Source of the DNA: Herbaspirillum robiniae
GTDB lineage: Bacteria > Pseudomonadota > Gammaproteobacteria > Burkholderiales > Burkholderiaceae_D
NCBI RefSeq assembly: GCF_002213415.1
Contig: NZ_NJGU01000001.1
Coordinates: forward strand, 372,001 to 436,000
DNA length: 64,000 nt
Direction of reading: 5' to 3'
A program made the position numbers and the translations under genes. A model generated the notes under the pieces. It did not search any database. It saw only the letters and a program-made list of their open reading frames with translations, and was not told the DNA's origin. Positions 3,681 through 37,781 of this stretch are shown here, piece after piece (within the stretch, counting starts at the first letter, position 1; each line of letters begins with the position of its first letter).

Positions 3681-4115
3681 TCAGCGCGGCGCGACGATGA
3701 GCCGGCTGCCGCGTATCTCGCGGATGACGTAGGCGCCGGGCAAGGCGTGGTGGCCGGCCTGCAGCTCCACGTCCCACAAGGCGCCGCGATAAGGCACGCG
3801 GGCGATGTGCTGGCTGCCGTGCTCCTGCCAGGCCGCCACTTCCACGGTCTGGCCGATGTCGAGGATGACGTTGGGATCCTTGTTGGCGTCCGTGCCGCGC
3901 AGGCGGCCGAAGCGGCTGCGGCGCAGCGCCAGCACGGCGGCCACGCCGACCACGGCCGCCGCCAGCAGCTGCCATTCAGCCTGCGCGCCGGCGAGCGCGG
4001 CAACGCCGCCGGCAGCCACGCCCAGCGCGATCATCAGCAGGTAGAAGGTTCCGGTGAACAGTTCGGCTGCGATCAGCACGCCGGCCAGCACGAACCAGAT
4101 GGCCCAATCCGTCAT
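3681..4115 (-). CDS. NfeD-like membrane protein (short form)
   Basis: A 144-residue protein: two to three membrane helices in residues 5-65 (including LFTGTFYLLMIALGVAAGG), then a C-terminal OB-fold-like domain (about 80-144) with the typical TVEVAAW...ARVPYRGALWDVEL pattern. There is no N-terminal ClpP-like protease domain, so it belongs to the short NfeD class. Family members interact with their neighbouring SPFH protein. It is probably the first gene of the minus-strand unit that continues into the SPFH gene. Confidence 0.9.
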   Translation of the reverse strand: MTDWAIWFVLAGVLIAAELFTGTFYLLMIALGVAAGGVAALAGAQAEWQLLAAAVVGVAAVLALRRSRFGRLRGTDANKDPNVILDIGQTVEVAAWQEHGSQHIARVPYRGALWDVELQAGHHALPGAYVIREIRGSRLIVAPR

Positions 4116-4189
4116 GTGCGATTCCTTTGAAAAACACCGGTTTTCCCTCCGGCAAGGGCGGCATTAGTCTACCCCACAATCATGCGCCC

Positions 4190-4224
4190 AAAAACAAAGG
4201 CGCGGACATTTCTGCCCGCGCCTT
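4190..4224 (-). terminator. Terminator after ppsA
   Basis: A 9-bp perfect stem (4197-4205 with 4216-4224) is followed, in minus-strand reading, by a T-rich stretch (TGTTTTT). It lies 47 bases after the ppsA stop and before nfeD. Confidence 0.75.
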
Positions 4225-4270
4225 CATGCTTGTCGTATCCGCCGCCGTCTTCACGGCGACGGACAAGCCG

Positions 4271-6688
4271 TTACTTCTTCTTTGCCAGGTGCTGCCAGGT
4301 GTCGATCACGGTATCCGGATTGAGGGAGATCGATTCGATACCCTGCGCCATCAGCCACTCGGCGAAGTCCGGGTGGTCGGAAGGACCCTGACCGCAAATG
4401 CCGACGTACTTGCCCTTGGCCAGGCAGGTCGAAATGACCTTGCTCAGCAGGGCCTGCAGCGCCGGATCGCGCTCGTCGAAGTCGGCCGCCAGCAGTTCCA
4501 TGCCGGAGTCGCGGTCCAGGCCCAGGGTCAGCTGGGTCAGGTCGTTGGAACCGATCGAGAAGCCGTCGAAGTGCTCCAGGAACTGCTCGGCCAGGATGGC
4601 GTTGGACGGCACTTCGCACATCATGATGACGCGCAGGCCATTCTCGCCGCGCTTCAGGCCGTACTTGCCCAGGAGACCGATGACCTTCTCGGCCTGGCCC
4701 AGGGTACGCACGAACGGCACCATCACCTCGACGTTGGTCAGGCCCATGTCTTCGCGCACGCGCTTCATGGCCTGGCATTCCATCTGGAAGGCTTCGGCGA
4801 AATCGTCCGCCAGGTAGCGGGCGGCGCCGCGGAAGCCCAGCATCGGGTTTTCTTCGTCCGGCTCGTAGCGCGAACCGCCGATCAGCTTCTTGTACTCGTT
4901 GGACTTGAAGTCCGACAGGCGCACGATCACCGGCTTGGGCCAGAAGGCCGCGGCGATGGTGGCGATGCCTTCGGCCAGCTTGTCGACGTAGAAGGCCTTG
5001 GGCGAAGCGTGGCCGCGAGCCACCGACTCCACGGCCTTCTTCAGGTCGTTGTCGATGTTCGGGTATTCCAGGATCGCCTTCGGGTGCACGCCGATGTTGT
5101 TGTTGATGATGAACTCCAGGCGCGCCAGGCCCACGCCGCCGTTGGGGATCGACTGGAAGTCGAAGGCCAGCTGCGGGTTGCCCACGTTCATCATGACCTT
5201 CAGCGGGATTTCCGGCAGTTCGCCGCGCGCCACTTCGGTCACTTCGGTTTCCAGCAGGCCGTCGTAGATCTTGCCTTCGTCGCCTTCGGCGCAGGACACG
5301 GTCACCAGGGTGCCGTCCTTCAGCACGTCGGTGGCGTCGCCGCAGCCCACGACCGCCGGCACACCCAGCTCACGGGCGATGATCGCCGCGTGGCAGGTAC
5401 GGCCGCCGCGGTTGGTGACGATCGCCGAAGCGCGCTTCATCACCGGCTCCCAGTTGGGGTCGGTCATGTCGGCCACCAGCACGTCGCCGGGCTGCACGCG
5501 TTCCATCTCGGCAGGGTCGTTGATCACGCGCACCGGACCGGCGCCGATCTTCTGGCCGATCGCGCGGCCGGTGGCCAGCACGGTGCCCGAGCTCTTGAGC
5601 TTGAAGCGTTGCTGGGCGTCGGTCGCCTTCTGTTGCGACTTCACGGTTTCCGGACGCGCCTGCAGGATGTACAGCTTGCCGTCGCGGCCGTCCTTGCCCC
5701 ACTCGATGTCCATCGGACGCTGGTAGTGCTTTTCGATGATGGTGGCGTACTTGGCCAGCTCGACCACTTCGGCGTCGGTCAGCGAGTAGCGGTTGCGCAG
5801 TTCGACCGGCACGTCGACGGTCTTGACCGAACGACCGGCCTTGGCTTCGCCGGTGAACTCCATCTTGATCAGCTTGGAGCCCAGGTTGCGGCGGATCACC
5901 GGCTGCTTGCCCAGTTCCAGCATCGGCTTGTGGACGTAGTATTCGTCCGGGTTCACGGCGCCCTGCACCACGGTTTCGCCCAGGCCGTAGCTGGAGGTGA
6001 TGAAGACCACATCCTTGAAGCCGGACTCGGTGTCGATGGTAAACATCACGCCGGCCGCGCCCAAGTCAGAGCGGACCATGCGCTGCACGCCCGCCGACAG
6101 CGCGACTTCAGCGTGGGTGAAGCCCTTGTGCACGCGGTACGAGATCGCGCGGTCGTTGTACAGCGAGGCGAACACGTGCTTCATCGCTTCGAGCACGTTG
6201 TCGATGCCGACCACGTTCAGGAAGGTCTCCTGCTGACCGGCGAAGGATGCGTCCGGAAGGTCTTCCGCGGTGGCGGAGGAACGCACGGCGAACGACATCT
6301 CGCTGGTCGAATCGGCGACCAGCTTGTCGTAGAAGGAACGGATTTCCTGATCCAGACGCGGCTGGAACGGGGTGTCGACGATCCATTGACGGATCTCCGC
6401 GCCGGCGGCTGCCAGCGAGCGCACGTCGTCGATATCCAGGCCTTCAAGGCGCGCGGCAATGCGTGCAGCCAAGGTCTGGCCACCGTCGGCGCTGTGTTCA
6501 AGGAAATCGCGGAAGGCTTGCGCAGTTGTGGCGAAACCGCCCGGCACGCGTACACCTGCCCCGGCCAGCTGGGAGATCATTTCACCCAGCGATGCGTTTT
6601 TGCCACCGACGGACTCGACGTCCGTCATGCGAAGAGTTTCAAAGGAGGCTACGTATACTGCCCCCTGGGTGTTTACTGCGTTGGACAT
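4271..6688 (-). CDS. ppsA: Phosphoenolpyruvate synthase
   Basis: Converts pyruvate, ATP and water to phosphoenolpyruvate, AMP and phosphate, the entry step of gluconeogenesis from C3 compounds. The 805-residue product has the N-terminal ATP-grasp domain ([12 protein letters not shown]), the phospho-histidine swivelling domain with [14 protein letters not shown] (catalytic H433), and the C-terminal PEP-binding barrel ending with the GQGPSD loop. The start was set at 6688, where AGGGG stands 6 bases upstream; an in-frame ATG at 6733 would add 15 residues of unlikely sequence. The gene is divergent from its regulator ppsR. Confidence 0.96.
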
Positions 6689-29428: not shown

Positions 29429-29929
29429 TCAGAGGAAGCGGTCGAGGATCTTGCGGCTGTGCTTGTCCAGGGCCTTGAGGTCGCGCACCAGGAACTGGAT
29501 GCTGTGGCTGTCGGCGATCAGCAGCGCCGAGTTCGGCAAGCGGCGGATGTCTTCCTCGCCCTTGAGCGTGAAGGTGGTAACGCCGCGCGAGGTCTGTACG
29601 GTCCAGTCGCTGGGCGTGGCGTAAGTGGAAACGCCGACGATGCGCGAGATTTCCGGCATGAACTCGCGGCTGGCCAGCTCTTCCTCGATCAGCTTGCGCA
29701 CCTCCGCGCCCACCTGCTCCAGCCGGTCGATCCAGACCAGCTCGTGGCCGTCGCTGGACACCACCGACAGGCCGCCGTCGGGGGCGCTGACCGGGAAGGC
29801 CCGCACCGGAATCACGTTGTCGTGGGCCACGCCGTCGGCGCCGGTCAAGACCAGGCGCCCGAAGCTGTTGCGATGCAGGCTGAACGACGGCTGCCCGCCG
29901 GGATTGTTGGTCGTCATGGTCACTGTCAT
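29429..29929 (-). CDS. DUF1854 family protein of the cyanophycin locus
   Basis: A 166-residue soluble protein of unknown function, recognised as DUF1854; proteins of this family in Burkholderiales are typically found beside cyanophycin genes. No signal peptide or membrane helix is seen. Conserved-looking segments include FGRLVLTGADG, VIPVRAFPVSAPDGGLS, GHELVWIDRLEQV, REFMPEISRIVGVST and the C-terminal LNS/ALLIADSHSIQFLVRDL. Its start overlaps the ABC transporter stop by 4 bases (ATGA), so the pair is made together. The tie to cyanophycin is by neighbourhood, not by a known reaction. Confidence 0.85.
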   Translation of the reverse strand: MTVTMTTNNPGGQPSFSLHRNSFGRLVLTGADGVAHDNVIPVRAFPVSAPDGGLSVVSSDGHELVWIDRLEQVGAEVRKLIEEELASREFMPEISRIVGVSTYATPSDWTVQTSRGVTTFTLKGEEDIRRLPNSALLIADSHSIQFLVRDLKALDKHSRKILDRFL

Positions 29930-32202
29930 TCCCCCTTCTCGTCATCGCTGACCGAGACTTCCGCGTCGCCGTCAGGATTGCGCGCCTGCGCCTGGTAGAG
30001 CTTGTAGTAATGGCCTTCGCGCGCCATCAGCTCCTCGTGGTTGCCGACCTCGACCACCTGGCCGCGGTCCAGCACCACCAGGCGATCGGCCTTGCGCAGC
30101 GTCGACAGGCGGTGCGCGATGGCGATCGTGGTGCGGCCCTGGACCAGATTGTCCAGCGCCTTCTGGATTTCCTTTTCGGTGGTGGTGTCGACCGAGGACG
30201 TCGCCTCGTCCAGGATCAGGATGCGCGGGTCGATCAGCAGTGCGCGCGCAATCGAGATGCGCTGGCGTTCGCCGCCGGACAGCGCCTGGCCGCGCTCGCC
30301 CACCAGCGAGTCGTAACCCTGCGGCAGGCGCAGGATGAACTCGTGGGCGTGGGCCGCGCGGGCGGCGGCGATGATTTCCTCGCGGGTCGCATCCGGCTTG
30401 CCGTAGGCGATGTTCTCGGCGATCGTGCCGAAGAACAGGAACGGCTCCTGCAGCACCAGGCCGATGTTGCGGCGGTATTCCGAAATCGGCAGCGAGCGGA
30501 TGTCGACGCCGTCGATGCGGATCGATCCCTCCGACACGTCGTAGAAGCGGCAGATCAGGTTGACCATGGTCGACTTGCCCGAACCGCTGTGCCCCACCAG
30601 GCCGATCATCTCGCCAGGGGCGATGGTCAGGCTCATGTTGCGGATCACCGCGCGGTTGCCGTAGCGGAAGCCGATGTTGCGCACCTCGATGGCGCCCTTC
30701 ACGTTCTCCAGGTGGACCGGATTGGCCGGCTCGGGGACGCTGGAGACGTGGTCGAGGATGTCGAAGATGCGCTTGGCGCCGGCGGCGGCCTTCTGCGTGA
30801 CCGACACGATGCGGCTCATCGAATCCAGGCGGGTGTAGAAGCGGCTGATGTAGGCCAGGAAGGCGGTCAGCACGCCGACGGTGATCTGGTTGCTGGACAC
30901 CTGCCAGATGCCGAACACCCACACCACCAGGAGGCCGACTTCGGTCAGGAAGGTCACCGTCGGGGTGAACAGCGACCATATCTTGTTGACGCGGTCGTTG
31001 ACCACCAGGTTATGGCGGTTGGCCTCGCGAAAACGCGCCACTTCCCGCTTCTCCTGGGCGAAGGCCTTCACCACGCGGATGCCGGGGATGGTGTCGGCCA
31101 GCACGTTGGTCACCTCCGACCAGATGCGGTCGATCTTCTCGAAGCCGTGGCGCAGGCGGTCGCGCACCACGTGAATCATCCAGGCGATGAACGGCAGCGG
31201 CAACAGCGTCACCAGCGCCAGCCACGGGTTGATGGAGATCAGGATGGCCGCCGTCATGATGATCATCAGCACGTCGATGGCGAAATCCAGCAGGTGCAGC
31301 GACAGGAACACGCAGATGCGGTCGGTTTCCGAACCGATGCGCGCCATCAGGTCGCCGGTGCGCTTGCCGCCGAAGTATTCCTGCGACAGCCGCAGCAGGT
31401 GCTCGTAGGTCGTGGTGCGCAGGTCGGCGCCGATGCGCTCGGACACCAGCGCCAGGATATAGGTGCGCGCCCAGCCCAGGCCCCAGGCCAGCAGGGCCGC
31501 GCCCAGCAATCCCGAGAGGTAGAGCATGGCGAGATGGGTGTTGATCGGCGCGCCGTTCTGGAACGGGATCAGCACATTGTCCATCAGCGGCATGGTCATG
31601 TACGGCGGCACCAGCGTGGCCGCGGTCGAGGCCAGCGTCAGCAGGAAGCCCAGCAGCAGCGAGCCCTTGTAGGGCCTGGCGAAGCGCGACAGGCGGAACA
31701 GCGCCCAGGTCGACGGCGGCGCTTCCTTGGTTTCGGGGCAGATGGCGCAGGTTTCCTGGCCTTCGGGGATCGGCGCCTTGCATTGCGGGCAGACGTCGCC
31801 CTCTTCCACCGGCTTCACGCCGGAGGCCAGCAGGTCGCGCTGCTGCTCGAACAGCTTGATCAGGCGCAGCGCCTGCGGATTCTGGGCCAGCGTGTAACGC
31901 CAGGCGGCCAGGCGGCCGGCGCCGTCGCACAGCTCGAGCGTGCCGACGCCGGCGTGGTCGAAGTGCTTCAGCGTCAGCGCCGGATCGTATTCCCACTCCT
32001 GCCAGACCGTGCCTTCGGGCGTATTGGCCAGCAGCCGGGTTTCGGTGGCGACCACCAGCGAGGGACGGAATTGCAGTTGCGTGTCGAGGTCCAGCTCCAG
32101 CCAGGCCACGATCTTCTCGCTGGCGGCCAGGCGGGCGGCGATTTCCGTTCTCCAGCGTTCGGGCAGGCTGGCGGTGGCGGAAGGATGGGAATCAGTAGTC
32201 AT
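29926..32202 (-). CDS. ABC exporter with N-terminal zinc-ribbon extension, cyanophycin-associated
   Basis: A 758-residue fused transmembrane-plus-ATPase half transporter of the MsbA/type IV exporter kind. The first 165 residues are an unusual soluble extension that ends in a four-cysteine zinc ribbon (C138, C141, C152, C155). Six membrane helices follow (about 180-470), then the ATPase with Walker A GHSGSGKST, signature LSGGERQR, and Walker B ILILDEATSS. It probably works as a homodimer in the inner membrane. The adjacent DUF1854 gene and divergent cyanophycin synthetases suggest a role in polymer handling; the transported substrate is unknown. The C-terminal 35 residues are acidic. Confidence 0.88.
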   Translation of the reverse strand: MTTDSHPSATASLPERWRTEIAARLAASEKIVAWLELDLDTQLQFRPSLVVATETRLLANTPEGTVWQEWEYDPALTLKHFDHAGVGTLELCDGAGRLAAWRYTLAQNPQALRLIKLFEQQRDLLASGVKPVEEGDVCPQCKAPIPEGQETCAICPETKEAPPSTWALFRLSRFARPYKGSLLLGFLLTLASTAATLVPPYMTMPLMDNVLIPFQNGAPINTHLAMLYLSGLLGAALLAWGLGWARTYILALVSERIGADLRTTTYEHLLRLSQEYFGGKRTGDLMARIGSETDRICVFLSLHLLDFAIDVLMIIMTAAILISINPWLALVTLLPLPFIAWMIHVVRDRLRHGFEKIDRIWSEVTNVLADTIPGIRVVKAFAQEKREVARFREANRHNLVVNDRVNKIWSLFTPTVTFLTEVGLLVVWVFGIWQVSSNQITVGVLTAFLAYISRFYTRLDSMSRIVSVTQKAAAGAKRIFDILDHVSSVPEPANPVHLENVKGAIEVRNIGFRYGNRAVIRNMSLTIAPGEMIGLVGHSGSGKSTMVNLICRFYDVSEGSIRIDGVDIRSLPISEYRRNIGLVLQEPFLFFGTIAENIAYGKPDATREEIIAAARAAHAHEFILRLPQGYDSLVGERGQALSGGERQRISIARALLIDPRILILDEATSSVDTTTEKEIQKALDNLVQGRTTIAIAHRLSTLRKADRLVVLDRGQVVEVGNHEELMAREGHYYKLYQAQARNPDGDAEVSVSDDEKGE

Positions 32203-32934: not shown

Positions 32935-35133
32935 ATGAAAAACATCGAATTCCTCCGTTTCCTGCCTTTGAAAGGTCCGAACATCTGGACTTACCGCTCG
33001 GCCCTCGAAGTGTGGATCGATATCGGCGAACTGGAAGATTTCCCGTCGAACACCATTCCCGGCTTCACCGAGCGCCTCACCACCTGGCTGCCCACGCTGA
33101 TCGAGCACCGCTGCAGCTATGAAGTGCGCGGCGGCTTCGTCAAGCGCCTGGAAGAAGGCACCTGGCCCGGCCACATCCTGGAGCACGTCACGCTCGAGCT
33201 GCAGAACCTGGCCGGCCTGCCCGGCGGCTTCGGCAAGGCGCGCGAAACCAATGTGCGCGGCGTCTACAAGGTGGTGGTGCGCGCCCGCCACGAGACGGTC
33301 ACCCGCGCCGCGCTGTATGCCGCCCGCGACCTGGTGATGGCCGCCATCGAGAACCAGCCCTACGACCTCGAGGCCACGCTCTCCAAGCTGCGCCGCATGG
33401 TCGACAAGCTCTGCCTGGGCCCGAGCACCGCCTGTATCGTCGACGCCGCCGATGAGCGCCGCATCCCCACCATCCGCCTGTCCGAGGGCAACCTGGTGCA
33501 GCTGGGCCACGGCTGCAAGTCGCGCCGCATCTGGACCGCCGAGTCCGACGACACCGGCGCCATCGCCGAAGGCATCTCGCGCGACAAGGACCTGACCAAG
33601 TCGCTGCTGGAAACCTGCGGCGTGCCGGTGCCCGAAGGCCGCCTGGTCGAGAGCCCCGAAGACGCATGGGACGCCGCCGAGGACATCGGCCTGCCGGTGG
33701 TGGTCAAGCCCTGCGACGCCAATCACGGCCGCGGCGTCTTCATCGACCTGAACACCCGCGAGGAAATCGAGACCGCCTACAAGGCCGCGCTGGAAGAAGG
33801 CAGCGGCGTGCTGGTCGAACGCTTCGTGCCGGGCCTGGAGCACCGCCTGCTGATCGTCGGCGGCAAGCTGGCCGCCGCCGCCCGCGGCGAACCGATCTTC
33901 ATCGTCGGCGACGGCCAGTCCACCGTCCAGCAGCTGCTGGACGAACTCAACAGCGATCCGCGCCGCGGCCTGCTGGAAGAACACCTGCTGGATCCGGTGC
34001 TGCTGGAGCGTGAACCAGCCGCCGTGCTGGAGCTGCAGCGCCAGAACCTGAGCACCGAATCGGTGCCGGCCGCCGGCCGCCGCATCCTGCTGCTGCGCAA
34101 CGGCAACGTCTCCTCCGACATCACCGACAAGGTGCACCCCAGCGTCGCCGCCGCCGCCTCGCTGGCCGCGCGCATCGTCGGCCTGGACATCGCCGGCGTC
34201 GACATCGTGGCCGAAGACATCTCGCGCCCGCTGGCCGACCAGGGCGGCGCCATCGTCGAGGTCAACGCCGGCCCCGGCCTGCTGATGCACCTGAAGCCGT
34301 CCGAAGGAGAACCGCGCCCGGTCGGCGAAGCCATCGTCAACAACCTCTTCGGCGAAGAGGAAACCGGCCGCATTCCCGTGGTCGGCGTCACCGGCACCCA
34401 CGGCAAGACCACCATCTCGCGCCTGGTCGCCCGCATCATCCACCTCTCCGGCAAACATGTCGGCCTGGCCTGCGGCGACGGCCTGTACTTCGGCGAACGC
34501 CAGGTCGAGCGCGGCAACCGCGCCAACTGGGACGCCGCGCATCGGGTACTGCTGAACCGCGCGGTGGAAGCCGCCGTGTTCGAGAACGGCAGCGTGTCCA
34601 TCCTCTCCGAAGGCCTGGCCTACGACCGCTGCCTGGTCGGCGTGGTCGCCAACATCGACCCCGACGACAGCCTGCCCGAGTACTACATCGAGAACGCCGA
34701 GCAGATCGCCACCAAGGTCAAGCGCACCCAGGTCGACCTGGTGCTGCCCGAAGGCGCGGCCGTGCTGAACGCCGACGATCCGCTGGTGGCCGACATGGCC
34801 CAGCTGTGCGACGGCGAAGTGATCTTCTTCGGCATGGAGCCGCACTCCGAGCTGCTGGCCGCGCACCTGAAGGAAGGCAAGCGCGCCGTGTTCCTGCGCG
34901 GCGGCGACCTGATCCAGGCCGAGGGCGAGCGCGAATGCAAGGTCAGCTCGGTGGACGCCATTCCGCTGACCGAAAACGGCGCCGTGGCCTACCAGGTCGA
35001 GAACGTGCTGGCGGCAGTGGGCGCGGCGTGGGCACTGGGCATCTCGCCCGAAGTGATCCGCGCCGGCATCGAGCTGTTCGGCACCGAACAGGCCGAGCAG
35101 CAAGGCCTGAAGTTCAAGACCCAGGCCGCCTGA
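32935..35133 (+). CDS. Cyanophycin synthetase paralog, C-terminally shortened (CphA2/CphA'-like)
   Basis: A 732-residue member of the cyanophycin synthetase family, which polymerises aspartate and arginine (or the beta-Asp-Arg dipeptide) using ATP. It has the N domain (1-160) with the motif H80-I-L-E83-H84-V-T-L-E88, an ATP-grasp domain (about 205-480, starting SRDKDLTKSLLE), and a Mur-ligase-like domain with P-loop G487-T-H-G-K-T-T493. It stops soon after AVGAAWALGISPEV, so the C-terminal lobe of about 150 residues that completes the Mur-type active site in its neighbour is absent. The same shortening defines CphA2 enzymes. It lies 74 bases before the second synthetase. Start at ATG 32935; the ribosome-binding site is weak. 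Confidence 0.88.
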   Translation: MKNIEFLRFLPLKGPNIWTYRSALEVWIDIGELEDFPSNTIPGFTERLTTWLPTLIEHRCSYEVRGGFVKRLEEGTWPGHILEHVTLELQNLAGLPGGFGKARETNVRGVYKVVVRARHETVTRAALYAARDLVMAAIENQPYDLEATLSKLRRMVDKLCLGPSTACIVDAADERRIPTIRLSEGNLVQLGHGCKSRRIWTAESDDTGAIAEGISRDKDLTKSLLETCGVPVPEGRLVESPEDAWDAAEDIGLPVVVKPCDANHGRGVFIDLNTREEIETAYKAALEEGSGVLVERFVPGLEHRLLIVGGKLAAAARGEPIFIVGDGQSTVQQLLDELNSDPRRGLLEEHLLDPVLLEREPAAVLELQRQNLSTESVPAAGRRILLLRNGNVSSDITDKVHPSVAAAASLAARIVGLDIAGVDIVAEDISRPLADQGGAIVEVNAGPGLLMHLKPSEGEPRPVGEAIVNNLFGEEETGRIPVVGVTGTHGKTTISRLVARIIHLSGKHVGLACGDGLYFGERQVERGNRANWDAAHRVLLNRAVEAAVFENGSVSILSEGLAYDRCLVGVVANIDPDDSLPEYYIENAEQIATKVKRTQVDLVLPEGAAVLNADDPLVADMAQLCDGEVIFFGMEPHSELLAAHLKEGKRAVFLRGGDLIQAEGERECKVSSVDAIPLTENGAVAYQVENVLAAVGAAWALGISPEVIRAGIELFGTEQAEQQGLKFKTQAA

Positions 35134-35207: not shown

Positions 35208-37781
35208 ATGGACGTATCCCGCATACGCGCACTGCGCGGCCCCAACCTCTGGTGCAGACACACCGCCATCGAAGCCATCGTCTCCTGTCCGGAATCGGAA
35301 CGGGTGGTGGACGACATGCCCGGCTTCGAGGTGCGCCTGCGCGCCCGCTTCCCGCAAATCGGCTTCCTTGAGCCCGACGGCGGCAAGCAGGCCGTCTCGA
35401 TGGCCCACGCGCTGGCCGCCGCCGCGCTGGCCCTGCAGTCGCAGGCCGGCTGCCCGGTGACCTTCAGCCGCACGGTCTCCACCATCGAGACCGGCATCTA
35501 CCAGGTCGTCGTCGAATACAGCGAAGAGGAAGTCGGCCGCCTGGCCTTCGACCTGGCGCTGGAGCTCTGCCTGGCCGCCCAGGCCGACACGCCGTTCGAC
35601 CTGACCGGCGCGCTGGCCCGCATCCGCGAGCTCGACGAAGACGTGCGCCTGGGCCCCAGCACCGGCTCCATCGTCAATGCCGCCGTCAAGCGCGGCATCC
35701 CGTTCCGCCGCCTGACCCAGGGCAGCATGGTGCAGTTCGGCTGGGGCAGCCGCCAGCAGCGCATCCAGGCCGCCGAGACCAGCAACACCAGCGCCATCGC
35801 CGAATCGATCGCGCAGGACAAGGACCTGACCAAGATGCTGCTGCATGCGGCCGGCGTGCCGGTCCCCAACGGCCGCGTGGTCACCACCGTGGAAGACGCG
35901 CTCAAGGCCGCCGAGGAAATCGGCTCGGCCGTGGTGATCAAGCCGCTGGACGGCAACCAGGGCAAGGGCGTGGCGGTCAACATCAGCACCCGCGCCCAGA
36001 TCGAACATGCCTTCGCCAATGCCGCGAAGATCAGCGACGAAGTGATCGTCGAGCGCTACCTGCCCGGCCACGACTTCCGCCTGCTGGTCATCGGCAAGAC
36101 CCTGGTGGCCGCGGCCCGCCGCGATCCGCCGCAAGTCATCGGTGACGGCGTGCACACCATCCGCCAGCTGATCGACCAGGTCAACGCCGACCCGGCGCGC
36201 GGCGACGGCCATGCCACCTCGCTGACCAAGATCCGCCTGGACGACATCGCGCTCTCCGTGCTGGCCGGCCAGAATCTGGACCCTGAGGCCATTCCCGCCC
36301 AGGGCGTGCGCGTGGTCCTGCGCAACAACGCCAACCTCTCCACCGGCGGCACCGCCACCGACGTCACCGACGACGTCCACCCCGACATGGCCGCGCGCGC
36401 CATCGCCGCGGCGCAGATGGTCGGTCTCGACATCTGCGGCGTGGACGTGGTCTGCAACTCGGTGCACATGTCGATGGAAGAACAAGGCGGCGGCATCGTC
36501 GAAGTCAACGCCGCGCCCGGCCTGCGCATGCACCTCTCGCCGTCCTACGGCAAGAGCCGCGACGTCGGCGAGGCGATCATCTCGACCATGTATGAAGACG
36601 GCGACGACGGCCGCATCCCGGTAGTGGCCGTGGCCGGCACCAACGGCAAGACCACCACCGTGCGCCTGATCACCCACCTGCTGGCCAAGACCGGCCTGCG
36701 CGTGGGCATGACCAATACCGACGGCGTCTACATCGACGGCCTGCGCACCGACACCGGCGACTGCAGCGGCCCGCGCAGCGCGCGCAACGTGCTGTTCCAT
36801 CCGGACGTGGACGCGGCCGTGCTGGAAACCGCCCGCGGCGGCGTGCTGCGCGAAGGCCTCGGCTTCGACCGCTGCGCCGTGGCCGTGGTGACCAACATCG
36901 GCATGGGCGACCACCTGGGGCTGTCCTACATCAGCACCGTGGAAGACCTGGCCGTGGTCAAGCGCGTGATCGTCGAGAACGTCGCGCCCACCGGCACCGC
37001 CGTGCTCAACGCGGCCGATCCGATGGTCTCGAAGATGGCGGCCTCCTGCCCCGGTTCGGTGACCTTCTTCGCGCTCGATCCCCAGCACCCGATCATGGCC
37101 ACCCACCGCGCCCAGGGCCACCGCATCGTCTACCGCGACGGCGACGCCATCGTGGCCGCGCAGGGCGATTTCGAGAAGCGCCTGAAGCTGTCCGGCATCC
37201 CGCTGACCGGTAGCGGCGCCATCGGCTTCCAGGTCGAGAACGTGATGGCCTCGGTCGGCGCCGCCTGGGCGCTGGGCCTGGACTGGGAACAAGTCACCGG
37301 CGCCCTGGCCAGCTTCATCAGCGACAGCGGCACCGCCCCGGGCCGCTTCAACCTGTTCGACTACAAGGGCGCCACCCTGATCGCCGACTACGGCCACAAC
37401 CCGGACGCCATCGCGGCCCTGATCAAGGCCGTGGACAGCATGCCCGCCAAGCGCCGCTCGGTGGTCATCAGCGGCGCAGGCGACCGCCGCGACGTCGACA
37501 TCACCCGCCAGACCGAACTGCTGGGCGACGCCTTCGACGAAGTCGTGCTGTACCAGGACCAGTGCCAGCGCGGCCGCGTCGACGGCGAAGTGATCGCGCT
37601 GCTGCGCCAGGGCCTGGAGAAAGCCACCCGCACCAGCGACGTCAAGGAAATCTACGGCGAATTCCTCGCCATCGATACCGCCCTGGCATCGCTGAAGGAC
37701 GGCGACCTGTGCCTGATCCTGATCGACCAGGTGGAGGAAGCGCTGGCGCACATCAACATGCGCGTGAGCGAAAAGCAGTAA
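35208..37781 (+). CDS. cphA: Cyanophycin synthetase
   Basis: The full-length 857-residue enzyme making multi-L-arginyl-poly-L-aspartate, a nitrogen and carbon store, without ribosomes. Domains: N domain (1-160), ATP-grasp domain that adds aspartate (about 200-475, AQDKDLTKMLLHAAGVPVPNG), and Mur-ligase domain that adds arginine, with P-loop G477-T-N-G-K-T-T483 and a complete C-terminal lobe (NLFDYKGATLIADYGHNPDAI, GDRRDVDI). Where the upstream paralog has an HxxEH...E motif in the N domain, this protein reads H67-A-L-A-A-A-A-L-A, with alanines at three of the four positions. Probably co-transcribed with the paralog. No cyanophycinase gene lies in the window. Confidence 0.95.
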   Translation: MDVSRIRALRGPNLWCRHTAIEAIVSCPESERVVDDMPGFEVRLRARFPQIGFLEPDGGKQAVSMAHALAAAALALQSQAGCPVTFSRTVSTIETGIYQVVVEYSEEEVGRLAFDLALELCLAAQADTPFDLTGALARIRELDEDVRLGPSTGSIVNAAVKRGIPFRRLTQGSMVQFGWGSRQQRIQAAETSNTSAIAESIAQDKDLTKMLLHAAGVPVPNGRVVTTVEDALKAAEEIGSAVVIKPLDGNQGKGVAVNISTRAQIEHAFANAAKISDEVIVERYLPGHDFRLLVIGKTLVAAARRDPPQVIGDGVHTIRQLIDQVNADPARGDGHATSLTKIRLDDIALSVLAGQNLDPEAIPAQGVRVVLRNNANLSTGGTATDVTDDVHPDMAARAIAAAQMVGLDICGVDVVCNSVHMSMEEQGGGIVEVNAAPGLRMHLSPSYGKSRDVGEAIISTMYEDGDDGRIPVVAVAGTNGKTTTVRLITHLLAKTGLRVGMTNTDGVYIDGLRTDTGDCSGPRSARNVLFHPDVDAAVLETARGGVLREGLGFDRCAVAVVTNIGMGDHLGLSYISTVEDLAVVKRVIVENVAPTGTAVLNAADPMVSKMAASCPGSVTFFALDPQHPIMATHRAQGHRIVYRDGDAIVAAQGDFEKRLKLSGIPLTGSGAIGFQVENVMASVGAAWALGLDWEQVTGALASFISDSGTAPGRFNLFDYKGATLIADYGHNPDAIAALIKAVDSMPAKRRSVVISGAGDRRDVDITRQTELLGDAFDEVVLYQDQCQRGRVDGEVIALLRQGLEKATRTSDVKEIYGEFLAIDTALASLKDGDLCLILIDQVEEALAHINMRVSEKQ

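Follow-up and report, generated by a model that had tools for sequence, protein, structure and literature searches.

Cyanophycin synthetase 1 (CphA1) has been described as a self-sufficient enzyme with three active sites per chain, in which expression levels offer no means of adjusting the balance between cutting and building (PMC9262961). In SuCphA1, the N-domain site consists of the motif Cx19HxxEH (C59, H79, E82 and H83), assisted by H57, F67, R70 and E87; it cuts cyanophycin to give primers, this endo-cyanophycinase activity having been shown by mutation and cryo-EM, and the H57A, C59A, R70A, H79A and E82Q substitutions reduce or abolish primer-independent activity (PMC9262961). In the G domain of TeCphA1, the incoming Asp is bound via N394, located in the large loop 389-399, R323 and R458, beside S396 (PMC9427784). 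Neighbouring cphA copies without a cyanophycinase gene are also known, namely in Sideroxydans, where they were called CphA1/CphA2 (PMC5178258), and in the sludge “Group 1” cluster with two cphA genes, an ATP-binding cassette (ABC) transporter and no cphB (PMC10687191). A locus of the same kind, including the ABC transporter, is analysed here in Herbaspirillum robiniae (assembly GCF_002213415.1, contig NZ_NJGU01000001.1, positions 372,001 to 436,000); this whole stretch of 64,000 nucleotides is referred to below as the window. On its + strand, two neighbouring genes code for CphA-family proteins, an upstream short-clade paralog of 732 amino acids (S, 32935..35133) and a downstream full-length CphA of 857 amino acids (L, 35208..37781). 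The three sites that SuCphA1 has on one chain are shared out here between the two tandem-encoded paralogs, and there are strong indications from the residues kept that the cutting site resides in S and the building sites in L. Tandem cphA pairs are thus already published, but reciprocal site loss was not found described in the literature searched: no paper on split or reciprocal active sites was found in a search mostly outside the subscription literature, and the passages concerned in PMC10687191 and PMC5178258, which cover gene content and expression, do not mention it. Adames 2013 reportedly noted a missing loop in CphA'.

Alignment of the N domain of S with SuCphA1 (PDB 7lg5/7txv) places the motif H80-I-L-E83-H84...E88, encoded exactly by codons 80-88 (33172..33198, +), residue for residue on H79, E82, H83 and E87. 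The initial annotation, made from the letters alone, had pointed out this motif together with its counterpart H67-A-L-A70-A71...A75 in L (35406..35432, +), and had suggested that it might belong to the hydrolytic third site reported for some CphA enzymes; both the residues and the assignment proved correct, and a chance motif is ruled out by the match to a published active site. Overlooked at that stage were the upstream Cys of the site and the equivalents of H57 and R70, all present in S: C60 corresponds to C59, the third zinc ligand (PMC9262961), and is encoded with H58 (H57) at 33106..33114 (+), while R71 at 33145..33147 (+) corresponds to R70, which is required for full primer-independent activity (PMC9262961). 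S therefore carries the complete SuCphA1 N site, i.e. H58, C60, R71, H80, E83, H84 and E88. The suggested kinship with M16 peptidases held only as far as the helix, since HxxEH is common to the S site and the M16 inverzincins, but the site is not strictly of the M16 type: its metal set is C-H-H, with a Cys further upstream as the third ligand, and not H-H-E/D/H with a downstream third ligand; an M16 peptidase was ruled out on this ground. The S site also lies in a small domain, its Cys-His-His metal set is shared with peptide deformylase, and the M16 kinship is called distant in PMC9262961. In an AlphaFold2 model of S with a predicted local distance difference test score (pLDDT) of 88.5, the N motif is located within one helix, 78-92. 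The best Foldseek matches of this model were TeCphA1 and SuCphA1 (template modelling score, TM, to query 0.83-0.86), followed at lower ranks by the Tm and A. baylyi CphA1 (0.77-0.79) and then by CphA2 (0.62-0.66), and the three-domain fold of SuCphA1 is common to S. In the model of L, which is of lower confidence (pLDDT 77.2), a helix (65-79) occupies the place equivalent to the motif helix of S. In the L protein of the window, E, H and E are replaced by alanines, and the loop expected to carry C59 and R70 is missing. The substitution within an otherwise matching segment, as originally noticed, is thus true for this locus, but it is only the local form of the loss.

The generality of this arrangement was estimated using two sets of sequences, the best 80 of 145 related loci and a sample of 399 genomes of the order of the window (Burkholderiales), 147 of which had a CphA match over the cut-off. 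Among the 140 CphA regions examined from the genome sample (one of them, G276, from outside the order), 132 had an S gene immediately followed by an L gene in the same orientation, two had L alone at a contig end, and six had a solo CphA. Because the two sets overlap in species, clustering at 90% was applied; removal of L proteins below 780 amino acids, S proteins below 690 amino acids and near-duplicates reduced 206 paired loci to 153 non-redundant pairs, to which the counts below refer and to which two special loci discussed later (L331 and L335) do not belong. The L class of 211 sequences in the large alignment includes fragments and one distant relative (L104) that is not a true L. Residue D585 of L was scored by the motif DHLG, since the MAFFT column at D585 of SuCphA1 is one residue off in this alignment. 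Positions common to several proteins are numbered as in SuCphA1 or TeCphA1.

H57, C59, R70, H79, E82, H83 and E87 were all kept in 153/153 S proteins. The full Cx19HxxEH motif was found in none of the 153 L proteins, and HxxEH alone in three. At the position of C59, L has a gap in 150 cases and another residue in three, and at that of R70 a gap in all 153. H79 (134/153) and E82 (115/153) are retained in L more often than H83, which is His in just four, so the alanines of the window represent one form of a general loss. In the S N domain, 24 of 160 columns are invariant, and the chance of seven given columns all being among them is ~7e-7. Moreover, positions 603 and 607, which in SuCphA1 are the N-site cyanophycin contacts S603 and E607 (PMC9262961), are Arg and Asp in 153/153 S proteins (R597 and D601 in the window, 34723..34737, +), though the M core is otherwise poorly conserved. 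By its sequence, therefore, S has in every one of the 153 pairs what characterises the N-domain endo-cyanophycinase of CphA1. The earlier proposal that the N-domain activity had moved to the short paralog agrees with the presence of the site in S and its absence from L in 153/153 pairs, as far as sequences can tell. That S is merely a decaying copy, retained purely as a structural partner of L, is hardly credible: the M core is poorly conserved (0.48) and Mlid mostly gone, but the N-site residues are invariant in the 153 S proteins and are still there in the most eroded S seen. The latter protein (locus L335, genome G078) has 674 amino acids, approximately 60 fewer than usual and mostly from the G domain; it carries H267A, E450D and N452T and has no M P-loop, and all seven N-site residues as well as R603/D607 are kept.

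The opposite distribution was observed for the G and M domains. The large G loop lacks five residues in every one of the 153 S proteins and has its full length in 153/153 L proteins and in 19/19 solo enzymes; R458 is replaced by Leu, Ile or Pro, and R323 by Gly, Ser or Ala, in every S protein, whereas the Asp pocket of R323, N394, S396 and R458 is kept in every L protein. In the S protein of the window, G318 (33886..33888, +) replaces the Asp-binding R323, L450 (34282..34284, +) replaces the Asp-binding R458, and five residues including the S396 position are missing from the large G-omega loop in the MAFFT alignment (34087..34119, +; residue roles from PMC9427784). The intact counterparts in L are N376 and S378 (36333..36341, +; N394 and S396) and R440 (36525..36527, +; R458). 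As for the M site, ETARGG occurs in 0/153 S versus 146/153 L proteins, R561 in 0/153 S, and the P-loop Lys in 71/153 S versus 153/153 L; K499, T500, E558, R561, R731, H748 and R777, as well as DHLG, are present in all L proteins, with D568-H569 (36909..36914, +) representing D585 H586 in the window. The M domain of the S protein there (32935..35133, +) is a core without the DH and ETARGG residues and has no Mlid. Taken as a CphA1, S has neither the Asp pocket nor an M site (P-loop, ETARGG, Mlid), whereas L has the Asp-pocket and M-site residues of SuCphA1 and departs from a complete enzyme at the P-loop His267. This residue is kept in 150/153 S proteins (H264 in the window, 33724..33726, +) and is Gln in 151/153 L proteins (Q251). 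E215, a polymer contact in TeCphA1, is uninformative, being lost in both S and L and Glu in only 8/19 solo enzymes. S proteins of full length (868-890 amino acids) were seen in Cupriavidus, Ralstonia, Achromobacter and their kin (loci L022, L024-L030, L032-L034, L036, L038-L050, L145-L148, L150 and L151). Only 13 of the 153 S proteins exceed 850 amino acids; these 13 non-redundant full-length proteins keep the M P-loop Lys and His586 but have lost R561 and the Asp pocket, which makes it probable that Mlid disappeared only once the split had occurred.

The description of S as a truncated paralog was accordingly right for the lost Asp pocket and the degraded M site and too simple for the G domain, where the ATP-grasp residues are kept. 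This retention is among the features that would fit a CphA2-like S, whose G domain would link beta-Asp-Arg dipeptides or short fragments, with no need for the M domain. Most S proteins resemble the cyanobacterial CphA2 (PDB 7ta5, 8fxh) in having a degraded M site and no Mlid, CphA2 being without M P-loop and Mlid (PMC9427784), and the adjacent pair of Sideroxydans was called CphA1/CphA2 (PMC5178258). However, the N-site motif is absent from CphA2 (PMC9262961) but present in 153/153 S proteins; S is nearer to CphA1 both by sequence (539 vs 200 bits) and by fold (TM 0.83-0.86 vs 0.62-0.66); and R458, which holds the incoming alpha-carboxylate, is lost in S, the residues of CphA2 at 323, 394-396 and 458 not having been read for comparison. 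Moreover, in the eroded S of L335 the N site persists despite the loss of H267, E450 and N452. A CphA2-like function of S is consequently quite improbable.

The interpretation that we consider likely is that of a split cyanophycin synthetase, in which S keeps the cutting site and L both building sites, the two proteins form one unit, and S cuts in trans. Such a system would have arisen by duplication of cyanophycin synthetase 1, the three active sites being divided between two proteins. S would use its N-domain metallohydrolase site for cutting the polymer between dipeptide units; L would use its two ligase sites for adding Asp onto the backbone (G) and Arg onto the side chain (M). Mcore touches three Gcores in the CphA tetramer (PMC9427784), and S and L may function jointly, probably in a mixed tetramer kept together through the Gcore and Mcore parts retained in S. 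L would elongate, and cutting of its product by S in trans would provide new chain ends and set the chain length. We infer that S cuts polymer, acts on the product of L and assembles with it; its predicted action in trans is supported by analogy with the isolated Su N domain, which, with two solubilising mutations, makes TmCphA1 primer-independent in trans (PMC9262961). The primer-dependent TmCphA1 (PDB 7lgn) is comparable to L in that both are without the N site; it differs in having His267 instead of Gln267, and the S gene lies upstream of L in 132/132 loci with both.

Several observations weigh against this interpretation. The ATP-grasp residues of the G domain, K261, E300, R309 and N452, are kept in 153/153 S proteins, and K261, E300 and R309 even in the eroded S of L335; they would be superfluous for a pure cleaving subunit, and S may have a second function. 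The polymer-contact residue E90 of SuCphA1 is Asn in 119/153 S proteins, and the contact S60 is Ser in 78 and Gly in 67 of the 153. The mean pairwise identity of the N domain is 0.65 in S vs 0.62 in L, and 0.68 for the S G domain; since conservation of the S N domain barely exceeds that of L and is lower than that of its own G domain, it is the site residues, not the domain as a whole, that carry the argument. In L, Gln stands in place of the catalytic H267, so that its G site may differ; Gln267 is also present in the single-gene enzymes of L306 and L331, and for this reason it was not read as inactivation of L. Finally, cyanophycin is only a putative product of the split pair: the homologs of R. 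eutropha H16 gave no cyanophycin, as stated in reviews (PMC8560796, PMC11362209), and none was thus detected from these genes.

Among priming, trimming for export and mobilisation, priming would be the most direct extension of the published biochemistry. The priming or trimming role first proposed for S is plausible to this extent, because the isolated Su N domain works in trans (PMC9262961) and a hand-off between S and L is accordingly possible. A pure primer model, however, leaves the reported lack of cyanophycin from the R. eutropha genes unexplained, given that expression of the primer-dependent TmCphA1 in E. coli yields the polymer (PMC9262961, Table 1). This lack would be better accounted for by an obligate two-protein unit, or by trimming and export of the product, than by priming alone. 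The split could thus be the reason why the R. eutropha cphA genes looked inactive, and it provides a two-gene set for trying primer-independent production.

The shared origin of the two proteins can be read, like the sites kept and lost and their generality, from the sequences themselves. In the G-domain tree, S and L each formed one clade, and these clades were sisters (Shimodaira-Hasegawa-like approximate likelihood ratio test, SH-aLRT, 99, 97 and 98); in a more careful tree, S, L and the enzyme of L331 were joined with support 100/98. Their nearest relatives outside were solo enzymes of the same class with intact sites (L097, L098, L332-L334), which suggests that the split probably began with the duplication of an enzyme active at all its sites, the functions of which were then divided. 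All 19 solo enzymes have the N site (judged by eye), H267, R309, R323, N394, S396, R458, D585 and H586, a regular expression for the N site matching only 6/19 because the C-to-H spacing varies; the motifs of the N site, the loop and R458 were also found in three further solo enzymes (G467, G598 and G731). Loss of the N site also occurred in other single-gene enzymes (L305 and L306) without any split. In L305 (Deinococcus deserti plasmid 1, 3914-6691), a single CphA has lost the N site and kept H267 and the Asp pocket, and no cyanophycinase is listed beside it, unlike in its relative L301. The divergent CphA of L306 (Chryseobacterium plasmid, 3728-6301) has no N site and has Gln267 as in L, and its product may differ.

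The locus L331 (genome G863) has the same ABC and DUF1854 genes beside a single L-like CphA, with no S between; the ABC gene was found in none of the other 47 genomes of the class of G863. This CphA has a complete N site together with the residues of the G and M sites, and Gln at 267 as in L; by its residues it looks functionally unsplit. Its N domain is S-like (53% identity to S vs 34% to L), whereas its G domain and M core are L-like (61% vs 55% and 57% vs 41% to S). By its G domain the enzyme is placed with L (99/97), either within that clade or next to it (52/74), whereas the N and M trees show L as a clade that excludes L331; the enzyme may be one of the L line that never lost the N site, or a recombinant. 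Like the eroded S of L335, it is a natural control in favour of a split synthetase, the N site being retained where S is missing. Its value is limited, however: its grouping with L means that it is no clean outgroup to S and L, its reading frame runs off the end of a contig, and the genome is metagenome-assembled with 8% contamination.

Divergent from S in the window lies a gene for an exporter-type ABC transporter (29926..32202, -; NF052233, cyanophycin metabolism-associated ABC transporter, 1461 bits against a cut-off of 880), followed by one for a DUF1854 protein (29429..29929, -; NF052234/PF08909, cyanophycin metabolism-associated). Among the best 80 related pairs, the ABC gene was near 78 and the DUF1854 gene near 73, and the ABC gene was near 121 of 134 from the genome sample, the stretches often ending too soon. 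Neither gene was detected near the 19 solo enzymes or in eight further solo loci; the absence of ABC is weak evidence for 13 of the 19, because only ~1.5 kb of flank was available, against mostly ~4 kb for the other six and the eight further loci. Genome-wide, the ABC protein exceeded the cut-off in 138/399 genomes, exactly the 138 with split-type genes (four of them assigned separately from the fetched regions, with only the start of L seen in one, G397), and in 0/9 solo-CphA genomes. At the same time, cyanophycinase (TIGR02069) exceeded its cut-off in 1/30 pair genomes, 5/5 solo genomes and 0/12 genomes with neither; its absence from Betaproteobacteria is stated in PMC5178258. The genome of the window has no TIGR02069 and no PF03575 protein, and S and L are its sole strong CphA matches, two others being far weaker.

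The scarcity of cyanophycinase would agree with S being the missing depolymerase, its N site mobilising stored polymer made by L, and PF01112 proteins (the isoaspartyl-peptidase family, that of IaaA) were found in 12/30 pair genomes, including that of the window, and in 5/5 solo genomes. On the other hand, the known N-site activity is slow and yields oligomers instead of dipeptides (PMC9262961), PF01112 had no match in 18/30 pair genomes, IadA was over the cut-off in 0/35 genomes, and some PF03575 protein is present in 7/30 pair genomes. We consider this role of S unlikely.

Together with the linked ABC transporter, the same scarcity leaves room for a product that is trimmed or exported and not only primed. 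In one such scheme, a short oligomer would be synthesised by L, cut by S and released from the cell via the ABC exporter together with DUF1854, so that nothing is stored. The exact match of ABC to the 138 split-type genomes, the cyanophycinase found in just 1/30 pair genomes, the lack of cyanophycin in R. eutropha (PMC8560796, PMC11362209) and the codirectional ABC, DUF1854, S and L genes of L051, L052, L067-L069, L072, L074 and L079 speak for it. Linkage is not function, however, and such an oligomer would be only a putative substrate of the ABC transporter; the 138 genomes are related, so co-inheritance accounts for part of the match. This scheme is possible but rather unlikely. Its fuller version, in which the split enzyme no longer serves storage, L building a cyanophycin-like chain, S cutting it to a set length and ABC with DUF1854 exporting the oligomers, would account for the scarce cyanophycinase and the absence of cyanophycin in R. 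eutropha; we regard it as doubtful.

Under the preferred interpretation of a split synthetase, many members of one bacterial order appear to carry the CphA sites on two genes. In Accumulibacter, both cphA copies are evenly expressed (PMC10687191). Counts of cphA in such sludge organisms do not by themselves demonstrate storage, because 29/30 pair genomes have no cyanophycinase match over the cut-off and 138/138 split-type genomes carry the exporter-type ABC gene.

Some minor features of these loci were also recorded. The loci closest to S, among the best 80 of 145 relatives, are from Herbaspirillum, the top ten having 90-95% identity. In this genus the ABC/DUF1854 pair is divergent from S, unlike in loci where ABC, DUF1854 and S are codirectional and likely form an operon (L051, L052, L061, L067-L069, L072, L074, L077, L079, L082 and L084). 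The ABC protein of the window (29926-32202, -) has an N-terminal extension of ~165-180 amino acids ahead of the membrane domain, which ends in a small, zinc-ribbon-like CxxC...CxxC cluster (CPQCKAPIPEGQETCAIC). Solo CphA1 genes often have directly downstream a Mur-ligase-like gene (~575-670 amino acids) that matches the M domain only, as seen at L276, L277, L280-L282, L337-L340 and L303, and in five f205 genomes this gene is followed by those for a cyanophycinase and a PF01112 protein.

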